DNA of 57,823 nucleotides from a virus, in the IMG/VR virus record IMGVR_UViG_3300008954_002723, positions 1 to 57,823 of that record; one strand, written 5' to 3'. Numbering within the stretch: position 1 is the stretch's first letter; the number at the start of each line of letters is the position of its first letter. Position numbers and translations under genes: made by a program. This document shows positions 37,905 to 52,682 of the stretch, piece by piece. The notes beneath the pieces were generated by a model that worked only from the letters and a program-made list of their open reading frames with translations, did no database searches and was not told the DNA's origin.

Positions 37905-39038
37905 TTATTTATTATTTTCAACTGCAGTTTGTGTTTCCGCTTTTTCTGTTTGTTGTATTAAAGTTTCTAATTCTACTTTTCTTCTATCAAAAATTCTACC
38001 ATATACTTCTTCAATACTTGTATCTCTTTCGTCAGTAGTATATAAAGATTTAAATTTATCCATACCTTCTACAATATTATTAGGTAAAGAATCTTCCATA
38101 AATAACCCTACCATCGTTGCGATAAGATCTGGTAAAGAATTAAGGTTGGCCGTCCAAATACCATTTTCATTTAATATTAAGTTACCATTTTGGTCTACTT
38201 TACCCATCCATTCTGGAACCATTCTTGGTATTTTACCAACTACAGGAGTATTTGTTTTCATACATTCTAATGGGAAGGTACCAAACCCTGCTAATTCATC
38301 AATCCAAACACCTAAAAATGATTTAGATAATTCTGTTGCAAAATCTTCTCTATTTAATCCTGACATATCTCTAAATGTTACAAATTGATAATGGGGATAT
38401 TTTTGGAAGAAAATTTTAACTAATTTTAATACTTCTCTTTTATCTCTCGCACTAATTGCAACTGTGGGTACTTTTGGTTTTTCATTTTCCGTAAAGAAAG
38501 AAGGTATACCCACTGGGATTATTTCTGTCATCAAATTTCTAAACACATTGTTAACATAATCTTTTAGATTTTGATTAGTAGTGATAACATCAGTTATACC
38601 AAATGCAGGCCAATTTTCTCCTATTTCTAACATTTCAAAAATGTATTCATAAGACTGTAAAAATACAATTCTTTTACAAGGAAAATTAGTGGTTTGTTTC
38701 ATTATACTGGCAAATGCCTCAGGGATAACCACGAAATCTGCGGGTCCTACTTGAAGTTTTTGTGATTCTATAGAAATATGGGGTAAGTTAGAATATTCTT
38801 CACCTAACCAATCTTCGACACCCATACCTTCAGCGTCACCTTTTAATTTATAATCATTTTTATCATGTAAAATTTGGGCATTAAACCCTAATTTACGTAA
38901 CACTTTAACATGTTCATAAATATTAGCAACCCCAGCCGTAGGATTGCCTTTAGTGTCAATTACGAAGAAATAAATACCAAAATCTTTAGTATTTAATTTT
39001 TCAATTGCACCTTCTAAATTTTTAATTTGTTCACTCAT
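37905..39038 (-). CDS. Glycosyltransferase, GT-B fold
   Basis: 377 residues. The N-terminal half has TAGVANIYEHVKVLRKLGFN and DFVVIPEAFASIMKQTTNFP with KRIVFLQSYEYIFEM. The C-terminal half has VAISARDKREVLKLVKIFFQ, FLGVWIDELAGFGTFPLECM and TNTPVVGKIPRM, the donor-binding E-x(7)-E-like region of GT4-type enzymes (GFGTFPLEC corresponds to EGFGLVPLEA). The acidic N terminus and a C-terminal Gln/Thr tail are extra. Pairs with the GT2 gene that follows it at 37889; both are separate from the 40.8-55.7 kb cluster. Confidence 0.75.
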   Translation of the reverse strand: MSEQIKNLEGAIEKLNTKDFGIYFFVIDTKGNPTAGVANIYEHVKVLRKLGFNAQILHDKNDYKLKGDAEGMGVEDWLGEEYSNLPHISIESQKLQVGPADFVVIPEAFASIMKQTTNFPCKRIVFLQSYEYIFEMLEIGENWPAFGITDVITTNQNLKDYVNNVFRNLMTEIIPVGIPSFFTENEKPKVPTVAISARDKREVLKLVKIFFQKYPHYQFVTFRDMSGLNREDFATELSKSFLGVWIDELAGFGTFPLECMKTNTPVVGKIPRMVPEWMGKVDQNGNLILNENGIWTANLNSLPDLIATMVGLFMEDSLPNNIVEGMDKFKSLYTTDERDTSIEEVYGRIFDRRKVELETLIQQTEKAETQTAVENNK

Positions 39039-39416: not shown

Positions 39417-40031
39417 TTATGTAATATCCTCAAATTCTACAGTTTCAGTACTTAGAATCTTATCTAACATCTTTTTATCATCTAATAATTCTTTTAAATC
39501 TATGATAGTATAATCTGCCACATTATCTTTATTATAGGTATTAATTACCTTAATGGAAATTTTACCACTGGGTTTAGTTCTTAAAGTTTGGGGACTAGCA
39601 GTTATTAAAATATCTACATGATCCCATTTATCATCATAATCTCTAACAAATATAATATTATTAATTTTAGACGAAAATTTTGACAGGAAGAATAAGGTTG
39701 CGGGCTTACTATTATTTAATTCTTTACTAATAACAATTGGTGTATGACCCAAATCCTCAATTAAATTATGTAACTGATTTAAATGTTCAATAGAGTTTAA
39801 TTTAACTTCTCCTGCATGTCCGAAAATCTCTAAAGCCGCATCTACATATAAAAATGTATTTAATTCTTGGGTTCCTCCACTAAAATTAAAATGGTCTTCT
39901 AAATTTAAAGTGTCTATATTTCTTTGTGGTAATTCCTCTCCTTCATTCACAGGATAATATTTATCATACACTAATTCAAATTTAGTTATAAAATCTCTTA
40001 TAACACCGTCTATAGTTATACCTATTTTCAT
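39417..40031 (-). CDS. HAD-fold protein with substituted nucleophile
   Basis: 204 residues. The start MKIGITIDGVIRDFITKFELVY aligns with HAD motif I (D-x-D-G-V/T), but the first, nucleophilic Asp is Thr (T-I-D-G-V). Later segments ILITASPQTLRTKPSGKISI and ADYTIIDLKELL fit the motif III/IV part of 5'-nucleotidase-like HAD proteins. HTPIVISKELNNSKPATLFFLSKF fits motif II. As written it should lack normal phosphatase chemistry, so it may be a binding or regulatory protein. Coupled to phoH by a 4-nt overlap. Confidence 0.7.
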   Translation of the reverse strand: MKIGITIDGVIRDFITKFELVYDKYYPVNEGEELPQRNIDTLNLEDHFNFSGGTQELNTFLYVDAALEIFGHAGEVKLNSIEHLNQLHNLIEDLGHTPIVISKELNNSKPATLFFLSKFSSKINNIIFVRDYDDKWDHVDILITASPQTLRTKPSGKISIKVINTYNKDNVADYTIIDLKELLDDKKMLDKILSTETVEFEDIT

Positions 40032-40783
40032 TTCTCTAATTTATCAAATACTTCTTCAATAAGTTTTATTATAGGGTTTCTTACCACATCCTCTGGATTA
40101 CGTAATTCCACACATCCAAACCCTTCAATATCCTTAAATTGTTCTAATACTACTTCTAAGGCAGAGTCATTTTTATTTCTAATATCTTTTTGTTTAACGT
40201 CTCCTAATATGATCATTTTGGAGTCATCTCCAATTCTAGTCATTAAGGTTCTAATATTATCTAAAGATATATTTTGGGCTTCATCAATAATAATAATAGA
40301 ATTATCTATACTTCTACCTCTCGCAAATGCAATAGGTAACACTTCAATTAATCCTACTGATCTTAATTTATGGGTACGCGCTTTACCAATTAATTTACGA
40401 AAATTATCCATAAAAGAATCAATATAAGGTTCCATTTTTTCCTCTAATGATCCTTTTAAAAACCCTATCTCTTCATTCTTTAATGTGGTTACTGATTTAA
40501 TCAATACTATTCTTTTATATTTGGCGGGATTTTTACTTTTTAATAATTTTAATGCTTGAGCACAAGATAAAAAAGTTTTGCCCGTACCTGGTAATCCACT
40601 ACATATAGTAATTTCATTTTGTTTAATAGAGTTTATTAAATGTTTTTGATTTTCCGTCTTACATTTAATATTAACTCTTAAAGTGCTTAATAAAACACTT
40701 TCTTCTTTGTTGGTTTTTTCTAAAAAATTGTTCAGTTCTTGGAGATCTTCCTCAGGAATCTCTTTAAATTTACGTCTTGCCAT
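40028..40783 (-). CDS. phoH: PhoH-like ATPase
   Basis: 251 residues. Walker A GLPGTGKT (63-70), IVLIKSVTTLKNEEIGFLKG (PhoH-specific), LPIAFARGRSIDNSIIIIDEAQ with Walker B DEAQ (167-170), and MIILGDVKQKD. PhoH proteins are RNA-associated P-loop NTPases common in phages, with an unclear job, perhaps RNA handling under phosphate stress. A basic N terminus of about 45 residues precedes the ATPase. Overlaps the HAD gene by 4 nt. Confidence 0.92.
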   Translation of the reverse strand: MARRKFKEIPEEDLQELNNFLEKTNKEESVLLSTLRVNIKCKTENQKHLINSIKQNEITICSGLPGTGKTFLSCAQALKLLKSKNPAKYKRIVLIKSVTTLKNEEIGFLKGSLEEKMEPYIDSFMDNFRKLIGKARTHKLRSVGLIEVLPIAFARGRSIDNSIIIIDEAQNISLDNIRTLMTRIGDDSKMIILGDVKQKDIRNKNDSALEVVLEQFKDIEGFGCVELRNPEDVVRNPIIKLIEEVFDKLEK

Positions 40784-40790
40784 TAATATC

Positions 40791-41870
40791 TTAAATGTTT
40801 TTATTTAATATAGGTATATCTGGATTGAAAGTATATGTTTTTTTATAATACTTTTTAATAATTTCTTTTATCCGTTTCGCACTATTACCATCCCATACAA
40901 AAGGAGTAGAATATTGTGGAACCGGAGATTCCCACATATTAGGTGTCATTATTGTTGGATTTTTGCATAAAATATTAGCCCCTACCTTAACACTTAAGAT
41001 ATGTTCAGTAGTGGGTCGGATAGTAATTATGCGTTTGCCGATGGCGGCACATTCTGATTGAACTCCTCCTGAATCAGATATTACAAATTCGGAGTATTTT
41101 AAGTGGGTAATGAAATCTTTATATCCCAATGGATCAATTAATTTTATATTAGTTGGGAGAGGAAATAATTGTTTAAGTGTTTTTAGAGTGCGTGGATGAA
41201 TAGGGAAAATAATAGGGTATGGAATTTCACCTAATTTAGTAATAATTGTTTTTAATGTTTTTATATTATCTACATTAAAAGGTCGATGTAGAGTACATAA
41301 AACGAATTTATTTGTATATGGTGATTCACCAACAGTATTGTAAATTTTTTTAAAGGTGTCTATGGCAGTATTACCTACCATAAAAACATTTTCATTTATC
41401 CCTTCATTACTTAAATTTTCCACACTTTCTTCATCACAACATAATAATATATCTGCGATATTATCTACAATAATTCGGTTTATTTCTTCAGGCATTTTTC
41501 TATCAAAACTTCTAGATCCCGATTCTACATGAATGATTGGTATATGTAATTTACTGGCTGCCAATGCCCCTGCTAATGTAGCAGTAACATCTCCGTAAAC
41601 TATAACTCCATTAGGTTTTTCTTTTTCTAAAATATTAGAAATTGCTATGAGACATTTTCCCGTATCTTCCGATTGGGATCCACCACCAATACTTAAGAGA
41701 TAATCGGGAGGAGATAAAGATAAATCGTTAAAAAATATATCCGACATGTTAATGTCATAATGTTGCCCAGTATGAATAACTATATTTTTATATTCTTTAT
41801 TTAATTCTTCTATTACAGAAGATAATTTCATAAAATTTGGTCTAGTACCTACAACATGTATAAATTTCAT
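40791..41870 (-). CDS. wecB: UDP-N-acetylglucosamine 2-epimerase, non-hydrolysing (WecB/WbpI type)
   Basis: 359 residues, full length. HVVGTRPNFMKLSSVI, HTGQHYD (33-39), YGDVTATLAGALAAS, HVESGSRSFDRKMPEEINR (114-132) and VSDSGGVQSE are family signatures, although HVESGSRS replaces the usual HVEAGLRS. Interconverts UDP-GlcNAc-type and UDP-ManNAc-type sugars. In the Wbp pathway a related enzyme (WbpI) acts on UDP-GlcNAc3NAcA. The directly upstream gene is a WbpB-like dehydrogenase, so the latter substrate is plausible. Overlaps that gene by 4 nt. Confidence 0.9.
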   Translation of the reverse strand: MKFIHVVGTRPNFMKLSSVIEELNKEYKNIVIHTGQHYDINMSDIFFNDLSLSPPDYLLSIGGGSQSEDTGKCLIAISNILEKEKPNGVIVYGDVTATLAGALAASKLHIPIIHVESGSRSFDRKMPEEINRIIVDNIADILLCCDEESVENLSNEGINENVFMVGNTAIDTFKKIYNTVGESPYTNKFVLCTLHRPFNVDNIKTLKTIITKLGEIPYPIIFPIHPRTLKTLKQLFPLPTNIKLIDPLGYKDFITHLKYSEFVISDSGGVQSECAAIGKRIITIRPTTEHILSVKVGANILCKNPTIMTPNMWESPVPQYSTPFVWDGNSAKRIKEIIKKYYKKTYTFNPDIPILNKNI

Positions 41871-42940
41871 ATACTATATTCCTTTTGTGGGGAAAAATTA
41901 TTTTTTTTATCTCTTATCTTATAAATTCTATTAATAATTTCTACTACTTTTAAACCTTCTAATGCATTATTACTTATTTCACTTTCCCCTTTTAGGGTGT
42001 CTACCACGTTTTGGATAACATAATGATGATTGGCGGCACTCCCTTTATAATCTCCATAATCATTAGGTGGATTGGCGGGTGGGAGTTGAGGCATTTCATA
42101 ATCTTTTATATTACAATACTCTACTTCATTCATATATTGACCACCAACCTTAACACTACCTTTACTACCAACAATGGTAATACTACTTTCTAAATTTTCA
42201 TCCCATACGGCAGTAGAATAATTTAAACTACCCATCCCTCCTTCTAAAAAGTCAAAAGATACAAAACCTGAATCTTCAAAATCCGTACTGTGCTTATGAG
42301 TAAAATCCTGGAATTTTCCCTGTATATTTTTAATATCCCCAAATAACCAATACATAATATCTATAAAATGAGAAAATTGTGTGAATAGAGTTCCCCCATC
42401 TAAATCCTGAGTCCCTTTCCAACCACCTTCTTTATAATATCTCTCGTCACGATTCCAATAACAATTAACCTGCACCATAAATACATCACCTATTATTTTC
42501 TCTGACACAATCTTTTTTAACCATGTACTGGGAGGGGAATATCTGTTTTGCATCACCCCAAAAACATAACAATTATTTTTTAAGGCATGAAATAAAACAT
42601 TCTCACAATCATATTTTTTTAAACCCAAAGGTTTTTCAATAACTACATGTTTTTTATGGTGGAGTAACTGAATAGCTTGTTGTGAATGTAATCCATTGGG
42701 TGTACAAACACATACAATATCTATTTCAGGATGATTATTTAACATTTCATCAATAGTCAAATAAAAAGGAATTTTATTAAACAAAGTAGAACTTACTTTA
42801 TTTTTAGGTAATATATCACAAAATGCAATTAGGTTAGTATCTTCATTATTTAAAATCATACTTCCATGTCTTTTACCAATATGTCCCGCACCTACTATTG
42901 CGAAATTGGTTTTATTGTTGGTATTATCGTATTTTTCCAT
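41867..42940 (-). CDS. Gfo/Idh/MocA oxidoreductase, WbpB/WlbA-like
   Basis: 357 residues. Rossmann start FAIVGAGHIGKRHGSMI (13-29), EKPLG (102-106) with the conserved Lys, GGWKGTQDLDGGTLFTQFSH and ANHHYVIQNVVDTLKG. The stretch GSLNYSTAVWDENLESSITI, then GSKGSVKVGGQYMNEVEY, is what I recall for Bacteroidota enzymes related to UDP-GlcNAcA 3-dehydrogenases. NAD(P)-dependent oxidation of a UDP-sugar (uronate) at C3 is likely, preparing it for amination by a DegT enzyme; one such gene lies at 48.3-49.0 kb. Overlaps the GT2-like gene by 17 nt. Confidence 0.85.
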   Translation of the reverse strand: MEKYDNTNNKTNFAIVGAGHIGKRHGSMILNNEDTNLIAFCDILPKNKVSSTLFNKIPFYLTIDEMLNNHPEIDIVCVCTPNGLHSQQAIQLLHHKKHVVIEKPLGLKKYDCENVLFHALKNNCYVFGVMQNRYSPPSTWLKKIVSEKIIGDVFMVQVNCYWNRDERYYKEGGWKGTQDLDGGTLFTQFSHFIDIMYWLFGDIKNIQGKFQDFTHKHSTDFEDSGFVSFDFLEGGMGSLNYSTAVWDENLESSITIVGSKGSVKVGGQYMNEVEYCNIKDYEMPQLPPANPPNDYGDYKGSAANHHYVIQNVVDTLKGESEISNNALEGLKVVEIINRIYKIRDKKNNFSPQKEYSI

Positions 42941-43778
42941 ATCTTTTTAATTTATATTCTTCTTTTCTACTTAAAGGTTTAGGTGAAGGAACCTTAAATT
43001 TATTATTATAAAATTGTGTTTTTAATTTTTCTATTATTTCTTCTGGTAATATATTATCAAGTGTTTGGGAGGCGGATGTAAATAACATTCCCATCTTACC
43101 ACTTTTTATTACATATCGTGCGGATCTTTTTTTTGAAATTTTATTAGCTCCATCGGTATGTAACCCTAATAAGGGTGTAGGGTGTCGATATCTGGGTTTA
43201 ATATTTTGTTGTGACCTTATCCACCCATCAATATTTTTAACTGGCCACGGACCTTTTAATTTTTTTATATAAGAAGTTTTAGTACCCATAAATAAACCGG
43301 TTTGTGCTGGATTATTTTTATAAGTTGCCCTTTTAAAAGTAAATAAATGTAAAAATAACCCAACTCCAATATCTACCCAATTAAAATTGTTTAATAATTT
43401 ATCATGAGTAAATTGTAATCTATTGGCGGGTGAATAATTATCTGAGGCACATAATAAAAATGAAGTACCTTTAGCGTGGTTGGCTATAATTACCCATTTT
43501 CTTGATAATGGAATACGTGTTGATAGTTCAATATAAACAATCCTCTTGCAACCTACTTGTGTAAGTCTCTCTATATAAGGAAGTATTCCTTCGGGACTAA
43601 AATATCCCTTACTTGGTTCCTCACATATAATTAATTCCCAATTATATTGTGTTTCTTGTCTACATAAACTCTCTAGTTGTAACCATATAATATTTTTATT
43701 TTCCCAAGTGGGCAATGCCACACATATATCTATAGTATTTCCACTTAGGTTTAATATTTCATGTATTTTTTTACTCAT
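42924..43778 (-). CDS. Glycosyltransferase family 2-like protein, copy A
   Basis: 284 residues. ICVALPTWENKNIIWLQLES (nucleotide-binding strand), NWELIICEEPSKG, then SFLLCASDNYSPANRL with the DxD-like Asp. TGLFMGTKTSYIKKLKGPWP and RSQQNIKPRYRHPTPLLGLH are shared nearly word for word with the gene at 49593-50345, so the two are paralogues. The shared H-T-D-G-A-N-K-I probably forms the active site. Expected to transfer a sugar onto a growing glycan. Basic C-terminal tail (SPKPLSRKEEYKLKRYGKIR). Confidence 0.8.
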   Translation of the reverse strand: MSKKIHEILNLSGNTIDICVALPTWENKNIIWLQLESLCRQETQYNWELIICEEPSKGYFSPEGILPYIERLTQVGCKRIVYIELSTRIPLSRKWVIIANHAKGTSFLLCASDNYSPANRLQFTHDKLLNNFNWVDIGVGLFLHLFTFKRATYKNNPAQTGLFMGTKTSYIKKLKGPWPVKNIDGWIRSQQNIKPRYRHPTPLLGLHTDGANKISKKRSARYVIKSGKMGMLFTSASQTLDNILPEEIIEKLKTQFYNNKFKVPSPKPLSRKEEYKLKRYGKIR

Positions 43779-44671
43779 GTTAACTTTTTAAATTTATTTG
43801 CTTCCATCAAAAAATAATTTTCACCAGTTAATTTATATAACATTTTTAATTGGTGGATATGAATTTGGTGATAAGGATTACTTTTAACTTTATGTTTTAG
43901 ACAATAAAAACTTCCTTTACTATTATTTCTAAATTTACTAATATATTTTTCTATAGTAGTAATAGAGGCATTTAATAATAACAAAGTTTCTTCGGTAGGG
44001 TTTAACCAATAGTAATCATATAAACCAAAAATCCCAAAAATGAATCCATTTAAAGTATTACATGGTTGTTCCATAGGATATTCTTCAATCCAATAATAAT
44101 TATTTTTATCCACATATACTACCCAAGGATCATAATATTCTTTTAAATTTTTAAAAGAATTAAAAATTAAGTCCGCATTTTTTTTATAAAGAGGTTCTTT
44201 AGTAGTATTATACATTCTAACCATTAGAGATAATATTTGTCCTTGGGACATTCCAGAGTACCATGGAGATTTTAATTTTTGATTTTTAATACCATGTAAA
44301 TTATAATTAAAATTATAGGGAAAATAAAGTGCATCATTAATTAACTGAGAATTTTCTATTATTTTTTTTGTAAATTTTTTAACCCGTAACAGATATTCTT
44401 CATTATTAGTAAGATGATAACTAAATAGATATCTAAAACATTGTTGGGTTATTCTCACTGGGGTATAACCCATATTTTTATTTTTAATGGGAAATCCTTC
44501 GATATCTTTGGGGTATTTTTTATTGGCGTAACTCCTACCCATTTTACCTAATGGGGTTATATTCCCTTTATCGGTGGGTTGTAAATTATTACTACTTTCC
44601 TTATCGGGAAAATCCCAATAATTGGTTTTTAAAATATTATAATTTTTATTTATAATTTTTTCTTTAATCAT
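43775..44671 (-). CDS. D-glucuronyl C5-epimerase domain protein
   Basis: 298 residues. SPWYSGMSQGQILSLMVRMY (136-155), YYWIEEYPMEQPCNTLNGFI (193-212) and FGIFGLYDYYWL are the hallmark stretches of the heparosan-N-sulfate-glucuronate C5-epimerase C-terminal domain family (PF06662): SGM-x-QG, EEYP and LNGF-x-GLYD. The N-terminal beta domain of the animal enzymes is missing; only the alpha/alpha-barrel remains. It would invert C5 of a uronic acid within a polymer (GlcA to IdoA type). No signal peptide, so it acts in the cytoplasm. Neighbours are glycosyltransferases, with a sulfotransferase 4 kb away. Confidence 0.8.
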   Translation of the reverse strand: MIKEKIINKNYNILKTNYWDFPDKESSNNLQPTDKGNITPLGKMGRSYANKKYPKDIEGFPIKNKNMGYTPVRITQQCFRYLFSYHLTNNEEYLLRVKKFTKKIIENSQLINDALYFPYNFNYNLHGIKNQKLKSPWYSGMSQGQILSLMVRMYNTTKEPLYKKNADLIFNSFKNLKEYYDPWVVYVDKNNYYWIEEYPMEQPCNTLNGFIFGIFGLYDYYWLNPTEETLLLLNASITTIEKYISKFRNNSKGSFYCLKHKVKSNPYHQIHIHQLKMLYKLTGENYFLMEANKFKKLT

Positions 44672-45489
44672 TATTTTTTAATTTTTAACCAATCTTTATC
44701 ATCTACTAAATATTCTAATACTTTTTCCCTTAAACTACTATCCTTTTCACCAATTGTTTTTCTTTCATCTGTAATATAATTTTTAATATCTTCTATACTC
44801 GACCACTGTAGTACATGTGGACCATTTATAACATTACTTATTACCTTTAACCCACATAACCCCATTTCTATAACACCTCCAGCGCCACCGCCACCTGGAG
44901 ATAAACCTAACCCAATAAAGCATTCTTTATAAAAATTTATTCCTACTTCTTTTTTCCATTTTTGTAAATCTATTACTCCATTAGTGGTGGGGTTTAATAA
45001 AAGAAGATCTTTTTTCACTTTTAATTCTTGAATTATATTCATACCGTAATAGTTTAATATTGCAGGTGAAAGTTTTACCTTTTTTCTATTATGAGTAGGC
45101 ATATAAGAAAAAATTTTATTACCTTTTTTTATGGGATTAAAATTATTTTTTTCATAAAAACTTCTTATAGGGGGGATGATCTCACAATGTATTCCTATTT
45201 TTTTTAAGTGAGATGGTACAAAATTTAAACACGTAATATGTCGAATATTAGGGTGACTCGCAATAAATTTAAGTGGAATCTGATTAAATTGGTTATAGGA
45301 ATCCACCCCACACCAAACTATAGTTAGATGTGATTTACATTTTTTAATAATTTTACCATCTATCTTATTATAAACCCCAAATATTATTAAAGGCTCATTA
45401 AAATTAATTTTACTTTTTAATTTAAAATGATTAACAAAATTAAAAGACTTCATTGATGCTGAGTTATATCCTTGTTTAAAATATTCCAT
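44671..45489 (-). CDS. Glycosyltransferase-like protein, GT-B type
   Basis: 272 residues. LIIFGVYNKIDGKIIKKCKS, LTIVWCGVDSYNQ, FVPSHLKKIGIHCEIIPPIR, ILNYYGMNIIQELKV and CFIGLGLSPGGGGAGGVIEM followed by GLCGLKVISN. The last is the donor-binding Gly-rich loop plus Glu of GT4-type enzymes, and IPPIR marks the hinge between the two Rossmann domains. The N-terminal domain is shortened relative to standard GT4 proteins (about 350 aa). Adjacent to the C5-epimerase with a 1-nt overlap, so the two probably act on the same glycan. Confidence 0.7.
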   Translation of the reverse strand: MEYFKQGYNSASMKSFNFVNHFKLKSKINFNEPLIIFGVYNKIDGKIIKKCKSHLTIVWCGVDSYNQFNQIPLKFIASHPNIRHITCLNFVPSHLKKIGIHCEIIPPIRSFYEKNNFNPIKKGNKIFSYMPTHNRKKVKLSPAILNYYGMNIIQELKVKKDLLLLNPTTNGVIDLQKWKKEVGINFYKECFIGLGLSPGGGGAGGVIEMGLCGLKVISNVINGPHVLQWSSIEDIKNYITDERKTIGEKDSSLREKVLEYLVDDKDWLKIKK

Positions 45490-46683
45490 TTATTTACCTT
45501 TTTCACATACTAAATATATACTCGAACATAAATCTGGGTATTGTTGTCCTAAAGAATAACATCCATCTAAATATTCTTTTGAGATAATATCTGTTTTTAA
45601 CAATTGGTCCCATTGGAAATTGGCCAGAGCCTTAAAGAATATTCCCGAGCGATGAATTATTTTTAGTCCACTTAATGAAGCGTCTCTTTCTAGAGTATCT
45701 AAGGAATATGTAATTCTATGTCCATGTTTTTCTTCCGAAGGAGTAATAGCACTATTATGAGGTATTAATCCCATTTTTACAGCAATTTGTCTTGAGGGAG
45801 CATTTGCATTAGGACATACTATAAATAATCTGCCCTCATCACTTAACCACTCGTCGTTTATTTTTTTTAAAATCTTAACAGGATCATCTAAATGTTCTAA
45901 AACATGAGTTAGTATAATATTATCATATTTAGTAGGTAAAACGGCTTCTTCAAATAATGAATTAACATATTTAACATTATGACCACAAAAATAAACTGAG
46001 TTATGGTCCATTTCTTCATAATTTAAACCATTAAGTCCTCTAGCTTCTTTTATTGCTTCGTTAGAAGCTTCTACACACGTTATATCATCAAAATAAGGGG
46101 TGAGTCTTTTTGTAAAATCTCCTTTAAAACTCCCTAATTCAAGTAAATTCCCTTTAACAGAAAAGGGAAGGAAGGATTTTAACATATAAGGGTGCATTAC
46201 ATCAAAATCAAAGTTATAAGCATATTTGTGGTCTTCAGTATCTTTTAATTCTTTATTATAGTCTCTAAGATTTTGCTCCAGTATTATTGTCTTATCCTTC
46301 ATATCATATAATTTATAGTTATGTTTTTTGTATAGTTTAATTGCTTTTTCATTTTCTTTAAAAACTTCTAATCTTATTTTACTATACTTTTTATATTGAA
46401 AATATTCACTACATTCCTTTAATAATTGGCTAGCAATACCTTTTTGTTTATAATTAGGGTCAACACTAACATTAGTAATCCATCCTATTTTATCTTTTTT
46501 AATATCATAAGCGGCAATCAAACCAATTAACTTACTATCTTCATGTTTAGTAAATAATATGGCATTCTTATGGAGTTTTTCAGCATATTCCCCAATATTA
46601 GTATAACTATCTAAAGGCGGGATGAACGTTGGCGAACAAACATCTAAATGTTTTTTTATTGTATCTATATCCATTATATTCAT
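45490..46683 (-). CDS. GNAT acetyltransferase / SAM methyltransferase fusion
   Basis: 397 residues in two domains. Residues about 1-135 are a GNAT N-acetyltransferase with ITNVSVDPNYKQKGIASQLL (acetyl-CoA loop QKGIAS). Residues about 150-397 are a class I SAM methyltransferase with LLELGSFKGDFTKRL (motif I), CVEAS, and ILTHVLEHLDDP (post-II/III), as in O-/N-methyltransferases of sugar clusters. N-acetylation plus methylation of an amino sugar is a logical joint activity (inference). The start at 46683 overlaps the upstream stop by ATGA, which supports this start over the Met three codons later. Confidence 0.8.
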   Translation of the reverse strand: MNIMDIDTIKKHLDVCSPTFIPPLDSYTNIGEYAEKLHKNAILFTKHEDSKLIGLIAAYDIKKDKIGWITNVSVDPNYKQKGIASQLLKECSEYFQYKKYSKIRLEVFKENEKAIKLYKKHNYKLYDMKDKTIILEQNLRDYNKELKDTEDHKYAYNFDFDVMHPYMLKSFLPFSVKGNLLELGSFKGDFTKRLTPYFDDITCVEASNEAIKEARGLNGLNYEEMDHNSVYFCGHNVKYVNSLFEEAVLPTKYDNIILTHVLEHLDDPVKILKKINDEWLSDEGRLFIVCPNANAPSRQIAVKMGLIPHNSAITPSEEKHGHRITYSLDTLERDASLSGLKIIHRSGIFFKALANFQWDQLLKTDIISKEYLDGCYSLGQQYPDLCSSIYLVCEKGK

Positions 46684-47642
46684 TTTTCTAAAATTGCCAA
46701 ACCAAAACCAAATCTACCAAAGTCATTACCATTATATAACATATAATGATTATTTTCTACTTCAAAAACATGAGGATAATGTTGCATTTGTGAATCCCAA
46801 CCAGTTTCGGAATATCCAATACCTCCAACATCATCTTCCCTACGCCAATTATATTTATCAACAGATGTCGCATACCCTATTTTATAACCCCTACCTTTAA
46901 TTTCTCTAAATTCTAAACCCTCTCTATAGACAAAATACATATGATATTTACCACCATAATAAAACACATCAGGACCAGCCTGACATTCATATTTACCTAA
47001 CCTATCTTCTATAATGTTTCTATCCTCTCTATCCCATTTTATCCCATCTGTAGAGGTTGCCATTTTATTTTTATAAATGATTTCCATTTTACCATCATTA
47101 TTGACCCATTCTGTCCCTGCTAAATAATACAAATACCACTTACCATCAAATATCCTAACTTTAGGGCCACTAATAACATAAGGTTCATTAATATCTGCAG
47201 ATAATATGGGACCAGTACCAACCCTATTAAATGTCTCACCACCATCTTGACTTATTGCCAAACCTATGGACGTATTAAAAGGTACTGACTTACATCTAGA
47301 CCACCCAGCATAATATAACCTAATACTGTCACCATCCCTAATAACTGAAGTAGGATAAACGGCATTCTCGTCAAAACTACCCGCACCTCCTAATGGTAAA
47401 ATAGGTTTTTCGGATACTCTTATAATTTTAGTTAAATCTCCCCTATCTAAATCTAAAAATGTAGTATGAGATGTTGCCTGCCCATCATTATCTTTAGGTG
47501 GTCTACATGAAAAATAAACTCTAACAAAATTATCAAAAACTAATGCGGAAGTGCATTGTGAATGACTATACATCCACTCTCTTTTAATCCCATCGTTCCA
47601 TATTTGAGGATTGAATATCTGCCCTATTTTTTTCCATTTCAT
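46680..47642 (-). CDS. Five-bladed beta-propeller glycoside hydrolase-like protein (GH43/GH130-type)
   Basis: 320 residues. Repeated blade motifs: WMYSHSQCTSALVFDNFVRV, IRLYYAGWSRCKSVPFNTSI followed by GLAISQDGGETF, YVISGPKVRIFDGKWYLYYL, KYECQAGPDVFYYGGKYHMY and NHYMLYNGNDFGRFGFGLAI. The pattern (G-x-A-x-S-x-D-G-x-x-F, W-Y-L-Y-Y) is that of the GH43/62/32/68/130 propeller folds. In phage and capsule clusters such proteins may trim or modify glycans. No signal peptide. Overlaps both neighbours by 4 nt, so it is an integral part of the operon. Confidence 0.75.
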   Translation of the reverse strand: MKWKKIGQIFNPQIWNDGIKREWMYSHSQCTSALVFDNFVRVYFSCRPPKDNDGQATSHTTFLDLDRGDLTKIIRVSEKPILPLGGAGSFDENAVYPTSVIRDGDSIRLYYAGWSRCKSVPFNTSIGLAISQDGGETFNRVGTGPILSADINEPYVISGPKVRIFDGKWYLYYLAGTEWVNNDGKMEIIYKNKMATSTDGIKWDREDRNIIEDRLGKYECQAGPDVFYYGGKYHMYFVYREGLEFREIKGRGYKIGYATSVDKYNWRREDDVGGIGYSETGWDSQMQHYPHVFEVENNHYMLYNGNDFGRFGFGLAILEK

Positions 47643-48346
47643 ACTAATGTGTAATTATTTAAATGTTCTTTTAATTGTTCTTTAGAGTTAAACATCATCA
47701 AATCAATAATAGAAAGCCAAGGTACGAAAACATTATCAAATTGTCCATATCTAACATCTCCTGTTTTGATAAAATTTAACTTTAAATTATGACTATGGAA
47801 TATTTCTTTAGAATATAACTCTAGCCCTCCTATTGCATTAATATAAACACTGGCCTTTTGTGCCTTACAAATCTCAATAACTTTATTTTGAGATCTCAAA
47901 GAATGATTCATATCTACTGTTGATGAGATGATAATTTTCGTTTCAACACCTAAGTATTTACATAAATTATTCACACTATTATATATGAATTTAAATAAGT
48001 TACTGTCCTCATACATGATACATTTTTCAATAATCGAATAGGCAGAGTCAAAATATTTAGCTTTCCTATATGATGACAAAATGAGGTTTAATATTTTTTG
48101 TCTGTCTTTTTCCCACGATAGGGATAATTGTCTATCCGAGACATCTAAAAAATCAGAATCTTTTTTTATAGGTAAAGTTATAATTCTATCTCTCCCATTA
48201 CATAAAATTCTATTCCTATTGATAAAACCCCTTTTTGTATATTGTATATTATCATAAATCACAAATTCGTCTACAGAATTAATTAACTGAAAATACCCAA
48301 TATATGGGAAGAAATAAGGTTGCATTATTGCCACTTTTTTATCCAT
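47639..48346 (-). CDS. WbqC-like family protein
   Basis: 235 residues from MDKKVAIMQPYFFPYIGYFQ (48346). The open frame extends 20 residues further, but that part overlaps the DegT gene and is not family-like. KVAIMQPYFFPYIGYFQLIN, YDNIQYTKRGFINRNRIL and ITLPIKK are the WbqC (PF08889) signature. The C-terminal TGDVRYGQFDNVFVPWLSII and DLMMFN complete the family. WbqC proteins sit in O-antigen and capsule clusters beside DegT aminotransferases and are linked to amino-sugar formation, with unclear chemistry. Here it is coupled to the DegT gene by an 8-nt overlap. Confidence 0.9.
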   Translation of the reverse strand: MDKKVAIMQPYFFPYIGYFQLINSVDEFVIYDNIQYTKRGFINRNRILCNGRDRIITLPIKKDSDFLDVSDRQLSLSWEKDRQKILNLILSSYRKAKYFDSAYSIIEKCIMYEDSNLFKFIYNSVNNLCKYLGVETKIIISSTVDMNHSLRSQNKVIEICKAQKASVYINAIGGLELYSKEIFHSHNLKLNFIKTGDVRYGQFDNVFVPWLSIIDLMMFNSKEQLKEHLNNYTLV

Positions 48347-48974
48347 TAGGGTTTGTATAAATTTTAAATTTAGAAAGATCCGGATAACTAATCTCTTTAT
48401 CCTCATTTATTTTAGGGGTTTCTCCATCATAAAATTGTTTCATCAATAATAATCCTCGGGTTGCCAATTCCGGTAACATATAAAAATTCCACCCAATCAT
48501 GTCAAAATGATCATCATGATAGGAACATTCTCTTCTTCCACTATATCGAGCTCTTCTAAACCATAAATAAGCATCATGATCATCGGTTAATATTGCGCCC
48601 CCTTTAGAGAGGTGTAAATGTTTATAAGGCCCTGTAAAAGATAAACACATTAAAGTATCTTTTATATACATATTATATGTAAATCTTAAAGCGGCATCCC
48701 ATACCCTAGTTGGTTTTAGTTGATAGGCGCCTTTTAATGACTTACCTTTAATTTTTTCAAATTTAACTTTTCCTCCTGCATGAATAATTTCACAAGGCAC
48801 TGAAGGATAAGTTCGATTAGGGATGATAATTTCTTTACCTTTAATATTTTCATACATTAAAGATAAAAAAATGGCATTACTTGCGTTATCTACTGCTATG
48901 GCATAGGGTGCACCTGTATATTTACATATTTCCTCTTCGAACTCATCAGTTATATTATATATTCCTATTGACAT
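48339..48974 (-). CDS. DegT/DnrJ/EryC1-type sugar aminotransferase, short form
   Basis: 211 residues. FEEEICKYTGAPYAIAVDNA with SNAIFLSLMY, EIIIPNRTYPSVPCEIIHAG, and SFTGPYKHLHLSKGGAILTD, in which Lys of YKHL is the likely PLP-binding residue. YSGRRECSYHDDHFDMIGWN, then FYMLPELATRGLLL, matches the family's R-Y-G... G-x-N-x-R/Y-M region. Family members have about 370 residues; the C-terminal domain is missing here and the frame ends cleanly at the WbqC gene. Short DegT proteins beside WbqC may work as a pair. It would aminate a keto-sugar such as the product of the dehydrogenase at 41.9 kb. Confidence 0.8.
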   Translation of the reverse strand: MSIGIYNITDEFEEEICKYTGAPYAIAVDNASNAIFLSLMYENIKGKEIIIPNRTYPSVPCEIIHAGGKVKFEKIKGKSLKGAYQLKPTRVWDAALRFTYNMYIKDTLMCLSFTGPYKHLHLSKGGAILTDDHDAYLWFRRARYSGRRECSYHDDHFDMIGWNFYMLPELATRGLLLMKQFYDGETPKINEDKEISYPDLSKFKIYTNPNG

Positions 48975-48983
48975 ATTTTATAT

Positions 48984-49589
48984 TTATTGAGATTTATTTT
49001 TATGGGGGAATGAAATGTTAGGGATGGCGCATTCCAAAAAATCACATATTTTTTCCCATCCATCACCTTCTTCAAAATCCATAATTAATAATTTATTTTT
49101 TTTGTTTTTAAAATATTTTTTAATATTATCATTATGATTATTATAAACTTTAATATATTTTTCCTTAGCTTCGGTAATAGTAGGTGCATCATTATCAAAC
49201 ATTTGTAAATGATATTTTTGCATTGCGTCTTTATTAACACCTTTTTGTCCAGTTTTTATGTTACCTTTAAAAATAGAAGTACTATTACCATAAAATCTAA
49301 CTATAGAATCAAACCATTTTTCTTCTTTTCTGATAGTAAGAATAAATTGGGACTCTTTATAATATTTATCCATCTTTTTATATACATCGGGAAAAAACCA
49401 AGGATAATCCGCAAAACACTTATATTTTTTTGCATAATCATAAATTTTATTTTCTTCACCATTATAATAATATTCTGATAATTTTCTATCTATAGGGCAA
49501 TATGGTTTAATGTTGAGAATATTAAATATTTCTCTTAGGGTGGTCGTTCCGGTTTTATTAAATCCAATGCCAATAATTTTTTTATTCAT
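48984..49589 (-). CDS. Sulfotransferase (PAPS-dependent, Sulfotransfer_4-like)
   Basis: 201 residues. IIGIGFNKTGTTTLREIFNI carries the 5'-phosphosulfate loop (KTGTTTL, residues 12-18). ADYPWFFPDVYKKMDKYY and FILTIRKEEKWFDSIVRFYG carry the 3'-phosphate-binding Arg/Ser segment. KLLIMDFEEGDGWEKICDFL is the typical end of the family. The length and order agree with the PF17784 type. It transfers sulfate from PAPS to an acceptor; in this cluster the acceptor is probably the glycan. No PAPS-synthesis gene is in the window, so the host must supply PAPS. Confidence 0.85.
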   Translation of the reverse strand: MNKKIIGIGFNKTGTTTLREIFNILNIKPYCPIDRKLSEYYYNGEENKIYDYAKKYKCFADYPWFFPDVYKKMDKYYKESQFILTIRKEEKWFDSIVRFYGNSTSIFKGNIKTGQKGVNKDAMQKYHLQMFDNDAPTITEAKEKYIKVYNNHNDNIKKYFKNKKNKLLIMDFEEGDGWEKICDFLECAIPNISFPHKNKSQ

Positions 49590-49592
49590 CCT

Positions 49593-50345
49593 TTAAACTT
49601 TTTCATATTTAAAATTTCTATTTAACTTAGTTAAAATATCTACTGGGATAATATCCTCAATTTTTTGTTGTGGTGGGTTAAAATGTACCCCATATTTTCC
49701 TTTTCTATATAAATTTTTCCTACTTATAGAAATTTTATTAGCACCATCCGTATGTAATCCCATTAATGGTAGATTATGACGATATCTGGGTTTAATATTT
49801 TGTTGAGAACGTATCCAGTTATCAATATATTTTTCCGGCCACGGACCTTTTAATTTTTTCATAATAGATGTTTTAGTACCCATAAACAATCCCGTCTGGT
49901 TGGGTTGATTTTTAAATGTGGCACAATTAAACTCATTTAAATTTAAAAAAAGTCCGGTTGCAACGTCAAACCAATTATATTTTTCTTTTAAATGGTTATG
50001 AGTAATTTCTATTCTATTGGGTGGGGAATAATTATCCGAGGCTGCCAATATAAATGTTTCCGATTTAGCAGTGTTAGCCATAATCCACCATTTTTGAGAT
50101 AATGGCACATGTTTTGTTAAGGGCATATAATTAATATTAATACATCCTACTTTTTCTAATCTTTCTTTATACGACATTATTACTTCTTCGCCGGCCATAT
50201 TTTTACTTTGTTCTTCACAGACAATTAATTCCCAATTATACTGGGTTTCTTGTCTACATAAACTCTCTAGTTGTAACCATATAATATTTTTATTTTCCCA
50301 AGTGGGTAATGCTACACTAACTTCTATTTTCATTCCTTTATCCAT
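49593..50345 (-). CDS. Glycosyltransferase family 2-like protein, copy B
   Basis: 250 residues from MDKGMKIEVSVALPTW; the upstream ATG at 50366 would overlap the preceding gene. VSVALPTWENKNIIWLQLES, NWELIVCEEQSK, FILAASDNYSPPNRIEITHN, TGLFMGTKTSIMKKLKGPWP and RSQQNIKPRYRHNLPLMGLH repeat copy A (42924-43778). A 62-nt block coding for the LQLESLCRQET region is identical in both genes. Probably transfers a related sugar in the same pathway. It lacks the basic C-terminal tail of copy A. Confidence 0.8.
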   Translation of the reverse strand: MDKGMKIEVSVALPTWENKNIIWLQLESLCRQETQYNWELIVCEEQSKNMAGEEVIMSYKERLEKVGCININYMPLTKHVPLSQKWWIMANTAKSETFILAASDNYSPPNRIEITHNHLKEKYNWFDVATGLFLNLNEFNCATFKNQPNQTGLFMGTKTSIMKKLKGPWPEKYIDNWIRSQQNIKPRYRHNLPLMGLHTDGANKISISRKNLYRKGKYGVHFNPPQQKIEDIIPVDILTKLNRNFKYEKV

Positions 50346-50349
50346 ATTT

Positions 50350-51138
50350 CTATTTAAATGTATCACATCTTTCTATTATTTTATTAACCACAGGATTAAT
50401 TTTTAAGTTATGTCTACCATAAGTAGTTCTGCGAATCATATTATCAAATGCAATTCTTTCTTGTTTATTAATAAGAGTGGTAAGACTTTTTTGGTGAGCT
50501 CTATAATAAAATATATAATCATTAATAGGTAATGTGGTAGTAAATTTACTTAACCTAACTAATAATTCATAATCACAAGAGAATCTATTATGGTGATAAC
50601 CACCACACATATCAAATACATGTTTTTTTATCATTATCGCCCCAGCGGCTTGTGCCGTTGCATTACTAACAACATTTTCTATATTGTCAACAAATACTTT
50701 ATATTTAAATTTTACAATATCATATTTAGGATCAGTTTTAGAGAGTGCCTCTATTCCTGTGGGCATCATTACATCATCACTACCAAACACTATAATATTA
50801 TCATATTTAATATGGGGTATTAAAGTATTTAACGCCACATATGCGCCCATATTTTTTTCTAAATTAAACACATCTAAATTTCTATATTTATCTTTAATTT
50901 CTATTATTTTTTTAAATGTTTCCGGACAACCATCCACCCCTACTAATACTTGAAATTTATTCTTTTCATTTTTATAAAATGTCTGATTTTCAATAGAATC
51001 TAAACATTCCTCAATATAATCAACGTTCTTGTATGTAGATATAAGTATAGTAGTATTAAAATTATTATTTACATAAGATGGGCGAGATAACTCTTCATCC
51101 TCAATTACATTAAAAAAATCTAAATTAGTTCCTACCAT
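50350..51138 (-). CDS. Glycosyltransferase family 2 (GT-A)
   Basis: 262 residues. TTILISTYKNVDYIEECLDS (nucleotide-binding strand), FQVLVGVDGCPETFKKI, EKNMGAYVALNTLI and YDNIIVFGSDDVMMPTGIEA (the DxD motif as S-D-D) are standard GT2 features. They are followed by GAIMIKKHVFDMCGGYHHNR and SCDYELLVRLS (acceptor/catalytic D). Cytoplasmic, no membrane helices, so it is not a polymerising synthase. Part of the minus-strand glycan operon, 2 nt after the tandem glycosyltransferase. Confidence 0.88.
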   Translation of the reverse strand: MVGTNLDFFNVIEDEELSRPSYVNNNFNTTILISTYKNVDYIEECLDSIENQTFYKNEKNKFQVLVGVDGCPETFKKIIEIKDKYRNLDVFNLEKNMGAYVALNTLIPHIKYDNIIVFGSDDVMMPTGIEALSKTDPKYDIVKFKYKVFVDNIENVVSNATAQAAGAIMIKKHVFDMCGGYHHNRFSCDYELLVRLSKFTTTLPINDYIFYYRAHQKSLTTLINKQERIAFDNMIRRTTYGRHNLKINPVVNKIIERCDTFK

Positions 51139-51140
51139 TT

Positions 51141-52682
51141 TTAACCTCTTTTTTGTATCATTATTTGTAATTGTTGTTGAACTTGTTCTGGGGTTGCCAC
51201 AGGAGTTTCGGTAGGTATAACTCCATGTTTTCTTTTATACCATAATGTTCCTTTTCTAAAATTCTCATTCCACGTTGGGGTGTGAGCAATGGTACTTTCC
51301 TCAATAGAATTAGGTATATCGGTTAAATATTCCCAACTCTTATCTATATCTGCAAAATACCAAAAAGATGGATGATATCCTTTTTTAATGGCTTGATAAG
51401 TATGTTCTACATGCTCCCATGCATTTTTGAATGCAGGATCAAATCCTCCAATATCTTCTAAGACTGGTCGATAATAATAAGAAAACGCCCCTACACAATT
51501 AGGATATAATGCAATGGTAACATCAATATTATTTTTATCTCCTGTCTCATAGGGAATAACCATTCTAGGATTTGGTTCTCCATCCAGATCTTTTCTATCT
51601 TCTAAATCTTTAAATCCTTGCCCCCCTTTTTTATTTGCAGGACCATGCAACCCAAAATTTAAATGTTTTATTCCAGATATTAAAGAATGTTTAATATATT
51701 CTTTAAACACATTTTCATCTTTAATTAAAATATCATCTTCCATAATGAATATGTGTTCACAATCTTTTTCCATTAAATAATTTATTGCCGTGGTTTTTGC
51801 GGCACCTACAGATTTATTAGTTTCATGTTGAATTATATGTGCATTAGATGGATAGGCATCATCATTATATGGGGTACCATCATTAACTATCACAAAATTT
51901 TTAATCCATTCAGGTACAGTAAACGCACTTTGTCTAATTCTATGTTCCGCATTATATGTCACCATCCCAAAACCAATTGTTTCAGGATTGAATTCTAATT
52001 TCTCTTCCCACGTTTTATTTTTGGTTAATCTTACGGGTAAATCGGATTTATATTTTTCTTCAAATTGTGTCTTCTTTTTGGCCCACTCATCATTAGTCAT
52101 ACCAATAGATAAATGTGTAACTCTTACAAAAGTGGTTAAACCAATTTTAACACCATCTAAATAATTAGGAAAACAAAAAGATAAATCATAAAAATGGAAC
52201 CCATCAAAAGATTCATCAAAATTATGTTTGATCTTTTGTTTATTAACACCAAAAAATAATCCATCTAAAATAACCATATCAGTAATTTTATTACCTTGAT
52301 CTTTAGAGTAGTAATTGGTCCATTTTTTACCTTCGTGTTTATGGGAAACTATACCATTCATAGATTCTTTGATTGTCCACCACTTTCCATTTACTAAATC
52401 GGTGGTTCCTGCAATACCAATAATCCCATATTCTTCATTCTTCTCAAATAAAGATTTTATTTTTCTCCCCCAATTTTTAGTGTCAAATATTACATCATCA
52501 TGACAAAAAATAACTATATCATTGGTCGTTTCTTTTAATCCTTTATTATAGGCTTGAGTTAATGACATCTCACCATCATTAACAATTTGTAAAATTTCTA
52601 TTTTATGAATACCTGATGTAGCTTTAATATGCTCAATAAATTCAGGTTTATCTTTTCTGGTGGAGAAAACAACACTAACCAT
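51141..52682 (-). CDS. Tandem glycosyltransferase family 2 protein
   Basis: 513 residues. The first GT-A-like domain (1-225) has VSVVFSTRKDKPEFIEHIKA, MSLTQAYNKGLKETTNDIVI and FCHDDVIFD (DxD-like HDD). The second (230-490) has IGFGMVTYNAEHRIRQSAFT, FVIVNDGTPYNDDAYPSNAH, AAKTTAINYLMEKDCEHIFI, MEDDILIKDENVF (EDD) and NAWEHVEHTYQAIKKGYHPS. Two catalytic modules in one chain recall bifunctional polysaccharide copolymerases that add two alternating sugars, which suits a repeating disaccharide (inference). The ATG overlaps the small upstream gene by 8 nt. Confidence 0.85.
   Translation of the reverse strand: MVSVVFSTRKDKPEFIEHIKATSGIHKIEILQIVNDGEMSLTQAYNKGLKETTNDIVIFCHDDVIFDTKNWGRKIKSLFEKNEEYGIIGIAGTTDLVNGKWWTIKESMNGIVSHKHEGKKWTNYYSKDQGNKITDMVILDGLFFGVNKQKIKHNFDESFDGFHFYDLSFCFPNYLDGVKIGLTTFVRVTHLSIGMTNDEWAKKKTQFEEKYKSDLPVRLTKNKTWEEKLEFNPETIGFGMVTYNAEHRIRQSAFTVPEWIKNFVIVNDGTPYNDDAYPSNAHIIQHETNKSVGAAKTTAINYLMEKDCEHIFIMEDDILIKDENVFKEYIKHSLISGIKHLNFGLHGPANKKGGQGFKDLEDRKDLDGEPNPRMVIPYETGDKNNIDVTIALYPNCVGAFSYYYRPVLEDIGGFDPAFKNAWEHVEHTYQAIKKGYHPSFWYFADIDKSWEYLTDIPNSIEESTIAHTPTWNENFRKGTLWYKRKHGVIPTETPVATPEQVQQQLQIMIQKRG

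Follow-up and report, generated by a model that had tools for sequence, protein, structure and literature searches.

The viral record IMGVR_UViG_3300008954_002723 of IMG/VR, analysed over its whole length of 57,823 nucleotides (hereafter the window), is part of the genome of a marine T4-like phage, the terminase, portal and major head protein of which match PHROGs families. On its minus strand, the gene at 43775-44671 codes for a 298-residue protein of the PF06662 family, which corresponds to the C-terminal domain of D-glucuronyl C5-epimerase (Glce) and defines a C5-epimerase superfamily. The explanation that we favour, and to which we give about an even chance, is that this gene was acquired and codes for a probably working uronyl C5-epimerase of that superfamily, made up of the helical catalytic domain only and located in the cytoplasm. 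It would belong to a swappable glycan cassette of the phage, the product of which would then be sulfated.

The open reading frame is intact, starts with an ATG at position 44671 and shares four bases (ATGA, 43778-43775) with the next gene, 42924-43778. The PF06662 profile matches residues 117-296 of the protein over profile positions 5-188 of 188 (E 9.4e-33), and the score of 113.7 bits, for a Pfam gathering cut-off of 23.3 bits, is far above chance. A previous annotation made without database searches (the sequence-only reading) had proposed this family, and the motifs that it quoted are indeed present: SGMSQGQ at residues 139-145, EEYP at residues 196-199 and LNGFIFGIFGLYDY at residues 207-220. 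Human and zebrafish Glce are the only matches in a sequence search of the PDB, and neither PHROGs nor NCBIfam has a family that matches the protein. For human Glce, E499, Y500, N510, Y560 and Y578 are named as the main catalytic residues (PMC13308652). After this numbering had been confirmed on the human chain, the alignment showed that all five are kept in the phage protein, as E197, Y198, N208, Y256 and Y267, respectively. Across 32 relatives, N208 is found in at least 90% of the sequences and the other four residues are invariant.

The phage protein was aligned with relatives, and the alignment served to compute an AlphaFold2 model (mean predicted local distance difference test score 88.9, predicted TM-score 0.89; low-confidence parts at residues 24-33 and 36-50). 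The model shows a barrel of helices in which all strands are short, with neither an N-terminal beta-hairpin nor a central beta-sandwich. Both this model and the length of the reading frame agree with the earlier description of a 298-residue protein without the beta-domains of the animal enzymes. The eight best matches of the model in the PDB are all Glce structures (E 1.6e-10 to 8.7e-10, root-mean-square deviation 2.3-3.0 Å over ~217 columns), including 4pxq (E 1.6e-10) and 6hzz (E 3.9e-10). They are followed by GH76 mannanases (3e-5) and then by cellobiose 2-epimerases (4e-4). Profile searches with the protein likewise reach these two families, with Glce ahead by several orders of magnitude. 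The sequence-only reading had named two outcomes that would speak against it, a model without the active-site Tyr and Glu residues or a better match to another barrel; the Tyr and Glu residues are kept, and Glce is the best match. A different helical barrel of the cellobiose 2-epimerase type was considered and rejected in view of the E-values, the deviations and the catalytic residues. In a viral structure library, one protein only matches the model below 1e-3.

The protein is predicted to be cytoplasmic, as had been proposed. It harbours neither a signal peptide nor a lipobox, and its most hydrophobic 15-residue N-terminal stretch averages -0.48. A signal peptide hidden behind an upstream start is ruled out, since the frame before the ATG is full of stops.

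The gene belongs to a region of the phage genome in which gene content changes rapidly. The best annotated portal relatives are those of Microcystis and Flavobacterium phages (35-42% identity), and 80 IMG/VR loci share the portal of the window at 74-100%. We compared the cassette in nine stretches of related records. Its borders are conserved, with a PhoH-like ATPase gene (40028-40783) on one side and, opposite it, a glycosyltransferase gene (51141-52682), a dUTPase gene and two further conserved genes. The content in between (40784-51140) is almost wholly different in the corresponding slots of seven relatives with portal identities of 74-91% (L133, L134, L136, L138, L139, L140 and L154). Thus, the slot of the sister phage L133 (portal 91%) holds genes for a pyruvyl transferase, a sulfotransferase, a GT10 glycosyltransferase, a GDP-mannose dehydratase and an epimerase/reductase. 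Those of other relatives hold GT11, GT17, GT25, FkbM/TylF methyltransferase and Sulfotransfer_2 genes, and that of L154 a WlbA-like gene and a related glycosyltransferase gene. No PF06662 gene was found in 40 related phage records, many of which are fragments. The segment 40784-51140 is a hypervariable glycan island. The sequence-only reading had missed this cassette, together with its sulfotransferase and its pair of WlbA-like and 2-epimerase genes.

Hypervariable glycan islands are already known in marine T4-like phages (PMC7029224). As in the window, the host-recognition islands of pelagimyophages and cyanomyophages are variable sets of lipopolysaccharide and glycosyltransferase genes. In contrast, they occupy another genome position, between VrlC and gp14; the main text of that paper mentions neither a sulfotransferase nor an epimerase, both of which have family members in the cassette of the window. 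The gene at 43775-44671 is thus a further member of a known family within a known type of island. What is new and unusual is its setting, with an epimerase-family gene beside a sulfotransferase gene in a phage cassette.

PF06662 relatives are also found in cellular genomes. The closest relatives of the phage protein are up to 45% identical to it over residues ~50-295, and close cellular ones occur in WOR-3, Neomarinimicrobiota, Balneola, KSB1, Flavobacteriaceae, Thermoactinomyces and haloarchaea. Their reading frames are mostly of 300-360 residues, and of 396 genomes sampled from the phylum to which one bacterial relative belongs, 11 contain a relative with E < 1e-12. Short, helical-only PF06662 proteins of ~300-360 residues are thus ordinary in bacteria and haloarchaea, so that the 'minimal' form, which had been singled out earlier, is not special to the phage. 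All 23 cellular members of the clade of the phage protein in the phylogenetic tree have a strongly hydrophobic N-terminal segment, in 20 cases together with a lipobox-like motif, as judged by a crude hydropathy measure rather than a trained signal-peptide predictor. These short prokaryotic lipoproteins share the length class and the catalytic residues of the phage protein; they carry an export segment, whereas the phage protein has none and is encoded in a sugar-synthesis cassette. In Haloferacaceae (L015, L016 and L020-L023), the PF06662 proteins have lipobox-like export signals, and the gene of L023 adjoins a sulfatase gene.

Under the favoured explanation, Y267, the equivalent of Y578 of Glce, would remove the proton at C5 of a uronic acid residue on one face, and E197, the equivalent of E499, would give a proton back on the opposite face. 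This corresponds to the roles described in a review for Glce, with Y578 abstracting and E499 donating the proton (PMC12834895). A D-gluco- or D-manno-configured uronate would thereby be converted to the L-epimer within an oligosaccharide under construction in the cytoplasm. The neighbouring sulfotransferase (48984-49589) would sulfate the glycan afterwards, and the finished glycan would be placed on the virion or on the envelope of the infected host. A change of the host surface against co-infection has been proposed (PMC7029224).

The packing of the gene in the cassette, with overlaps with its neighbours among sugar-pathway genes and a sulfotransferase gene, supports this explanation. So does the occurrence in Bacteroidota (L146-L152) of PF06662 proteins of 311-334 residues that are devoid of signal peptides and whose gene neighbours code for glycosyltransferases, GT9 heptosyltransferase-type proteins and a flippase. 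Those proteins resemble the phage protein in both respects; however, they are only 27-34% identical to it and cluster with animal Glce instead. Activity, an oligosaccharide as the substrate and a coupling to sulfation are suggested by analogy with known systems. In animals, the iduronic acid of heparan sulfate is made by the Glce enzyme family. Animal Glce (PDB 6hzz, 4pw2/4pxq; EC 5.1.3.12) shares with the phage protein the helical C-terminal catalytic domain, at ~25% identity in the structural alignment, and the five catalytic residues, but the phage protein has no secretion signal and belongs to another clade. RED65_08024 of Bermanella marisrubri is a prokaryotic Glce-family protein for which glucuronyl C5-epimerase activity is reported to have been demonstrated (PMC4432689, PMC12834895). 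A precedent for the cytoplasmic mode of action is archaeal Agl32, a helical-only glucuronyl C5-epimerase whose lipid-linked oligosaccharide substrate is sulfated afterwards (PMC13308652). Agl32 of Halobacterium salinarum is reported to be without the Glce catalytic residues (PMC13308652), whereas the phage protein has them; hence, the likeness is in the way of working and does not imply kinship.

If active, the phage protein would represent a uronyl C5-epimerase that is soluble, compact and devoid of the Glce beta-domains, of practical interest for the enzymatic synthesis of heparinoids, and it would test how little of Glce suffices for catalysis. It would also mean that the epimerise-then-sulfate chemistry of animal glycosaminoglycans and haloarchaeal N-glycans is within the range of phage glycan cassettes. 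A more far-reaching proposal, which we consider rather doubtful, is that the phage makes its own sulfated, C5-epimerised uronate glycan of a glycosaminoglycan-like type, using a cytoplasmic single-domain epimerase derived from an exported-lipoprotein lineage. The glycan would be displayed on virions or on the infected host and counter recognition or superinfection.

Several observations weigh against an epimerase of the Glce type. An IQ-TREE phylogeny of 46 sequences split the family into two clades (support 97/96), in one of which animal Glce is joined by the cytoplasmic proteins of Bacteroidota and by some proteins from phage tail regions. The phage protein falls in the other one, with the exported prokaryotic lipoproteins, although its position inside that clade is not resolved. 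A grouping of the phage protein with Glce was rejected by the approximately unbiased (AU) test (p 0.0066), and so was its grouping with the whole Glce-side clade (p 0.012). Given long branches, short Glce fragments, unusual composition and groups that were named after the tree was seen, we consider the apparent separation from Glce to be moderate evidence. Some of the exported lipoprotein relatives are encoded among housekeeping genes, not glycan genes. The beta-domains that the phage protein lacks contribute to the dimer of Glce. The TM-scores of cellobiose 2-epimerases (0.57-0.62) equal that of Glce (0.60), the former at a deviation of ~5 Å. Finally, among those window genes that were scanned, none was recognised as a 6-dehydrogenase for UDP-glucose or UDP-GlcNAc. 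The uronate would then have to be supplied by the host or by phage genes outside the window, unless the favoured explanation is wrong. Membership of the superfamily is nevertheless secure. The outright name D-glucuronyl C5-epimerase, as given by the sequence-only reading, agrees with the family, the five catalytic residues and the best structural match; it is suggested by fold and active site but not secured by descent, because the phage protein clades with exported prokaryotic proteins, apart from Glce.

The same fold and active-site residues might serve another reaction on uronates or other sugars, e.g. that of a lyase, a hydrolase or a 2-epimerase, as in much of the helical-barrel superfamily. 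No member of the clade of the phage protein is known to us to have been assayed, and both profile and fold searches extend to the GH76 mannanases and the cellobiose 2-epimerases. Given the complete set of five Glce catalytic residues and the lead of Glce in both searches, which amounts to several orders of magnitude, we regard another reaction as unlikely, but worth keeping in mind. The substrate might also be different, with the protein acting as a C5-epimerase for an aminouronate. The WlbA-like protein and the 2-epimerase would then help to make a 2,3-diacetamido-uronic acid, and the PF06662 protein would convert that residue, as the chain grows, from manno to gulo or from gluco to ido. Among solved structures, the oxidoreductase encoded at 41867-42940 is closest to 3q2i and 3q2k (E 6.5e-56), which we take to be the structures of WlbA, a UDP-GlcNAcA 3-dehydrogenase, by Thoden and Holden. 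The paper of these authors is cited in PMC10622841. Moreover, the product of 40791-41870 matches UDP-GlcNAc 2-epimerases and UDP-GlcNAc3NAcA 2-epimerases of the PDB equally well and carries RPNFMK where the latter carry RPQFIK, and the four genes from 40791 to 44671 are contiguous and overlapping. Nevertheless, TIGR00236 names the product of 40791-41870 a UDP-GlcNAc enzyme, and the DegT-type protein of the cassette is short and encoded several genes away. Neither a WbpA-type 6-dehydrogenase nor a WbpD-type acetyltransferase turned up in the window genes scanned, and a WlbA-like gene lies beside NeuB in another virus contig (L157), so that the dehydrogenase may serve other sugars. The latter two points led us to downgrade a firm assignment to the WlbA pathway, and an aminouronate substrate appears improbable on balance. 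That the gene is a passenger, non-functional in this phage and carried along in a fast-changing cassette, would fit the rapid turnover of the slot and the lack of a close viral relative among those searched. It is very unlikely given the intact reading frame, the tight coupling to the neighbours, the invariant catalytic residues and the confident fold.

The other genes of the cassette, all on the minus strand like its two border genes, together point to a glycan of uncommon type that is probably acidic and sulfated. After the PhoH-like border gene come the gene for the non-hydrolysing UDP-GlcNAc 2-epimerase family protein (40791-41870, TIGR00236 over its cut-off) and that for the Gfo/Idh/MocA oxidoreductase (41867-42940). 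WlbA-like dehydrogenases 46-76% identical to the latter are found in 13 other virus contigs (L154-L166), where their genes point to possible phage-made amino-sugar acids or nonulosonic acids; the one of L157 is the only one beside NeuB. The gene adjoining that of the PF06662 protein (42924-43778) codes for a probable GT-A type glycosyltransferase. Such a neighbour had been announced by the sequence-only reading; the adjacency holds, but the GT2 match, at 17.5 bits, is below the cut-off of 23.3. This protein is 61% identical to another probable GT2 glycosyltransferase of the cassette (49593-50366, GT2 score 20.3 bits), which suggests a duplication or two acquisitions.

On the other side of the PF06662 gene, 44671-45489 probably codes for a GT-B-like transferase. 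It has no Pfam match, and its relative in the same slot of L134 (28% identity) is the C-terminal part of a two-domain glycosyltransferase. It is followed by genes for a GNAT acetyltransferase fused to a class I methyltransferase, as identified by Pfam (45490-46683), a beta-propeller glycosidase/phosphorylase-like protein of the GH32/GH130 clan (46680-47642), a WbqC-like protein (47639-48406, E 2.3e-67) and a short DegT-type sugar aminotransferase of 211 residues (48339-48974). A similar protein, 66% identical to the latter, is encoded in the slot of L133 (6338-6991); both (~211-217 residues) lack the usual C-terminal part, and the region of the pyridoxal phosphate-binding lysine is apparently there. 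The sulfotransferase (48984-49589) is of the Sulfotransfer_4 family, with GFNKTGTTTL as a 3'-phosphoadenosine-5'-phosphosulfate (PAPS)-loop-like motif. Sulfotransferases of three Pfam families recur in the slot, with this gene, that of L133 (6984-7829) and three genes across L134, L136, L138, L139 and L140. This suggests that sulfated glycans may be a common product of this phage group, which makes them directly testable. Beyond the paralogous glycosyltransferase gene 49593-50366, the cassette ends with a GT2 glycosyltransferase gene (50350-51138), next to the glycosyltransferase border gene conserved across relatives. Outside the borders, 37905-39038 codes for a 377-residue protein without a Pfam or NCBIfam match, ~70% conserved beside the cassette of L154 and glycosyltransferase-like by eye.

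We also looked for PF06662 proteins in other viruses. We found no description of a phage C5-epimerase of this family in the open-licence literature. A scan of viral contigs with the phage protein alone yielded no close relative, and alignment-based scans yielded distant relatives only, mostly proteins of ~470 residues in high-GC contigs. Those of nine high-GC IMG/VR contigs (L032-L039 and L153) form a tight group of signal-less proteins of this size with an added C-terminal region, in which Q replaces E196 and the catalytic E197 and Y198 are retained. PF06662-like proteins annotated as hypothetical are encoded near tail and lysis genes in Pseudomonas phage vB_Pae_CF23a (L003, 7626-9308), with a probable signal peptide and extra C-terminal sequence, and in Bradyrhizobium phage ppBeUSDA76-1 (L002, 7515-8600). 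These two could be envelope-modifying lysogeny genes or code for virion enzymes.
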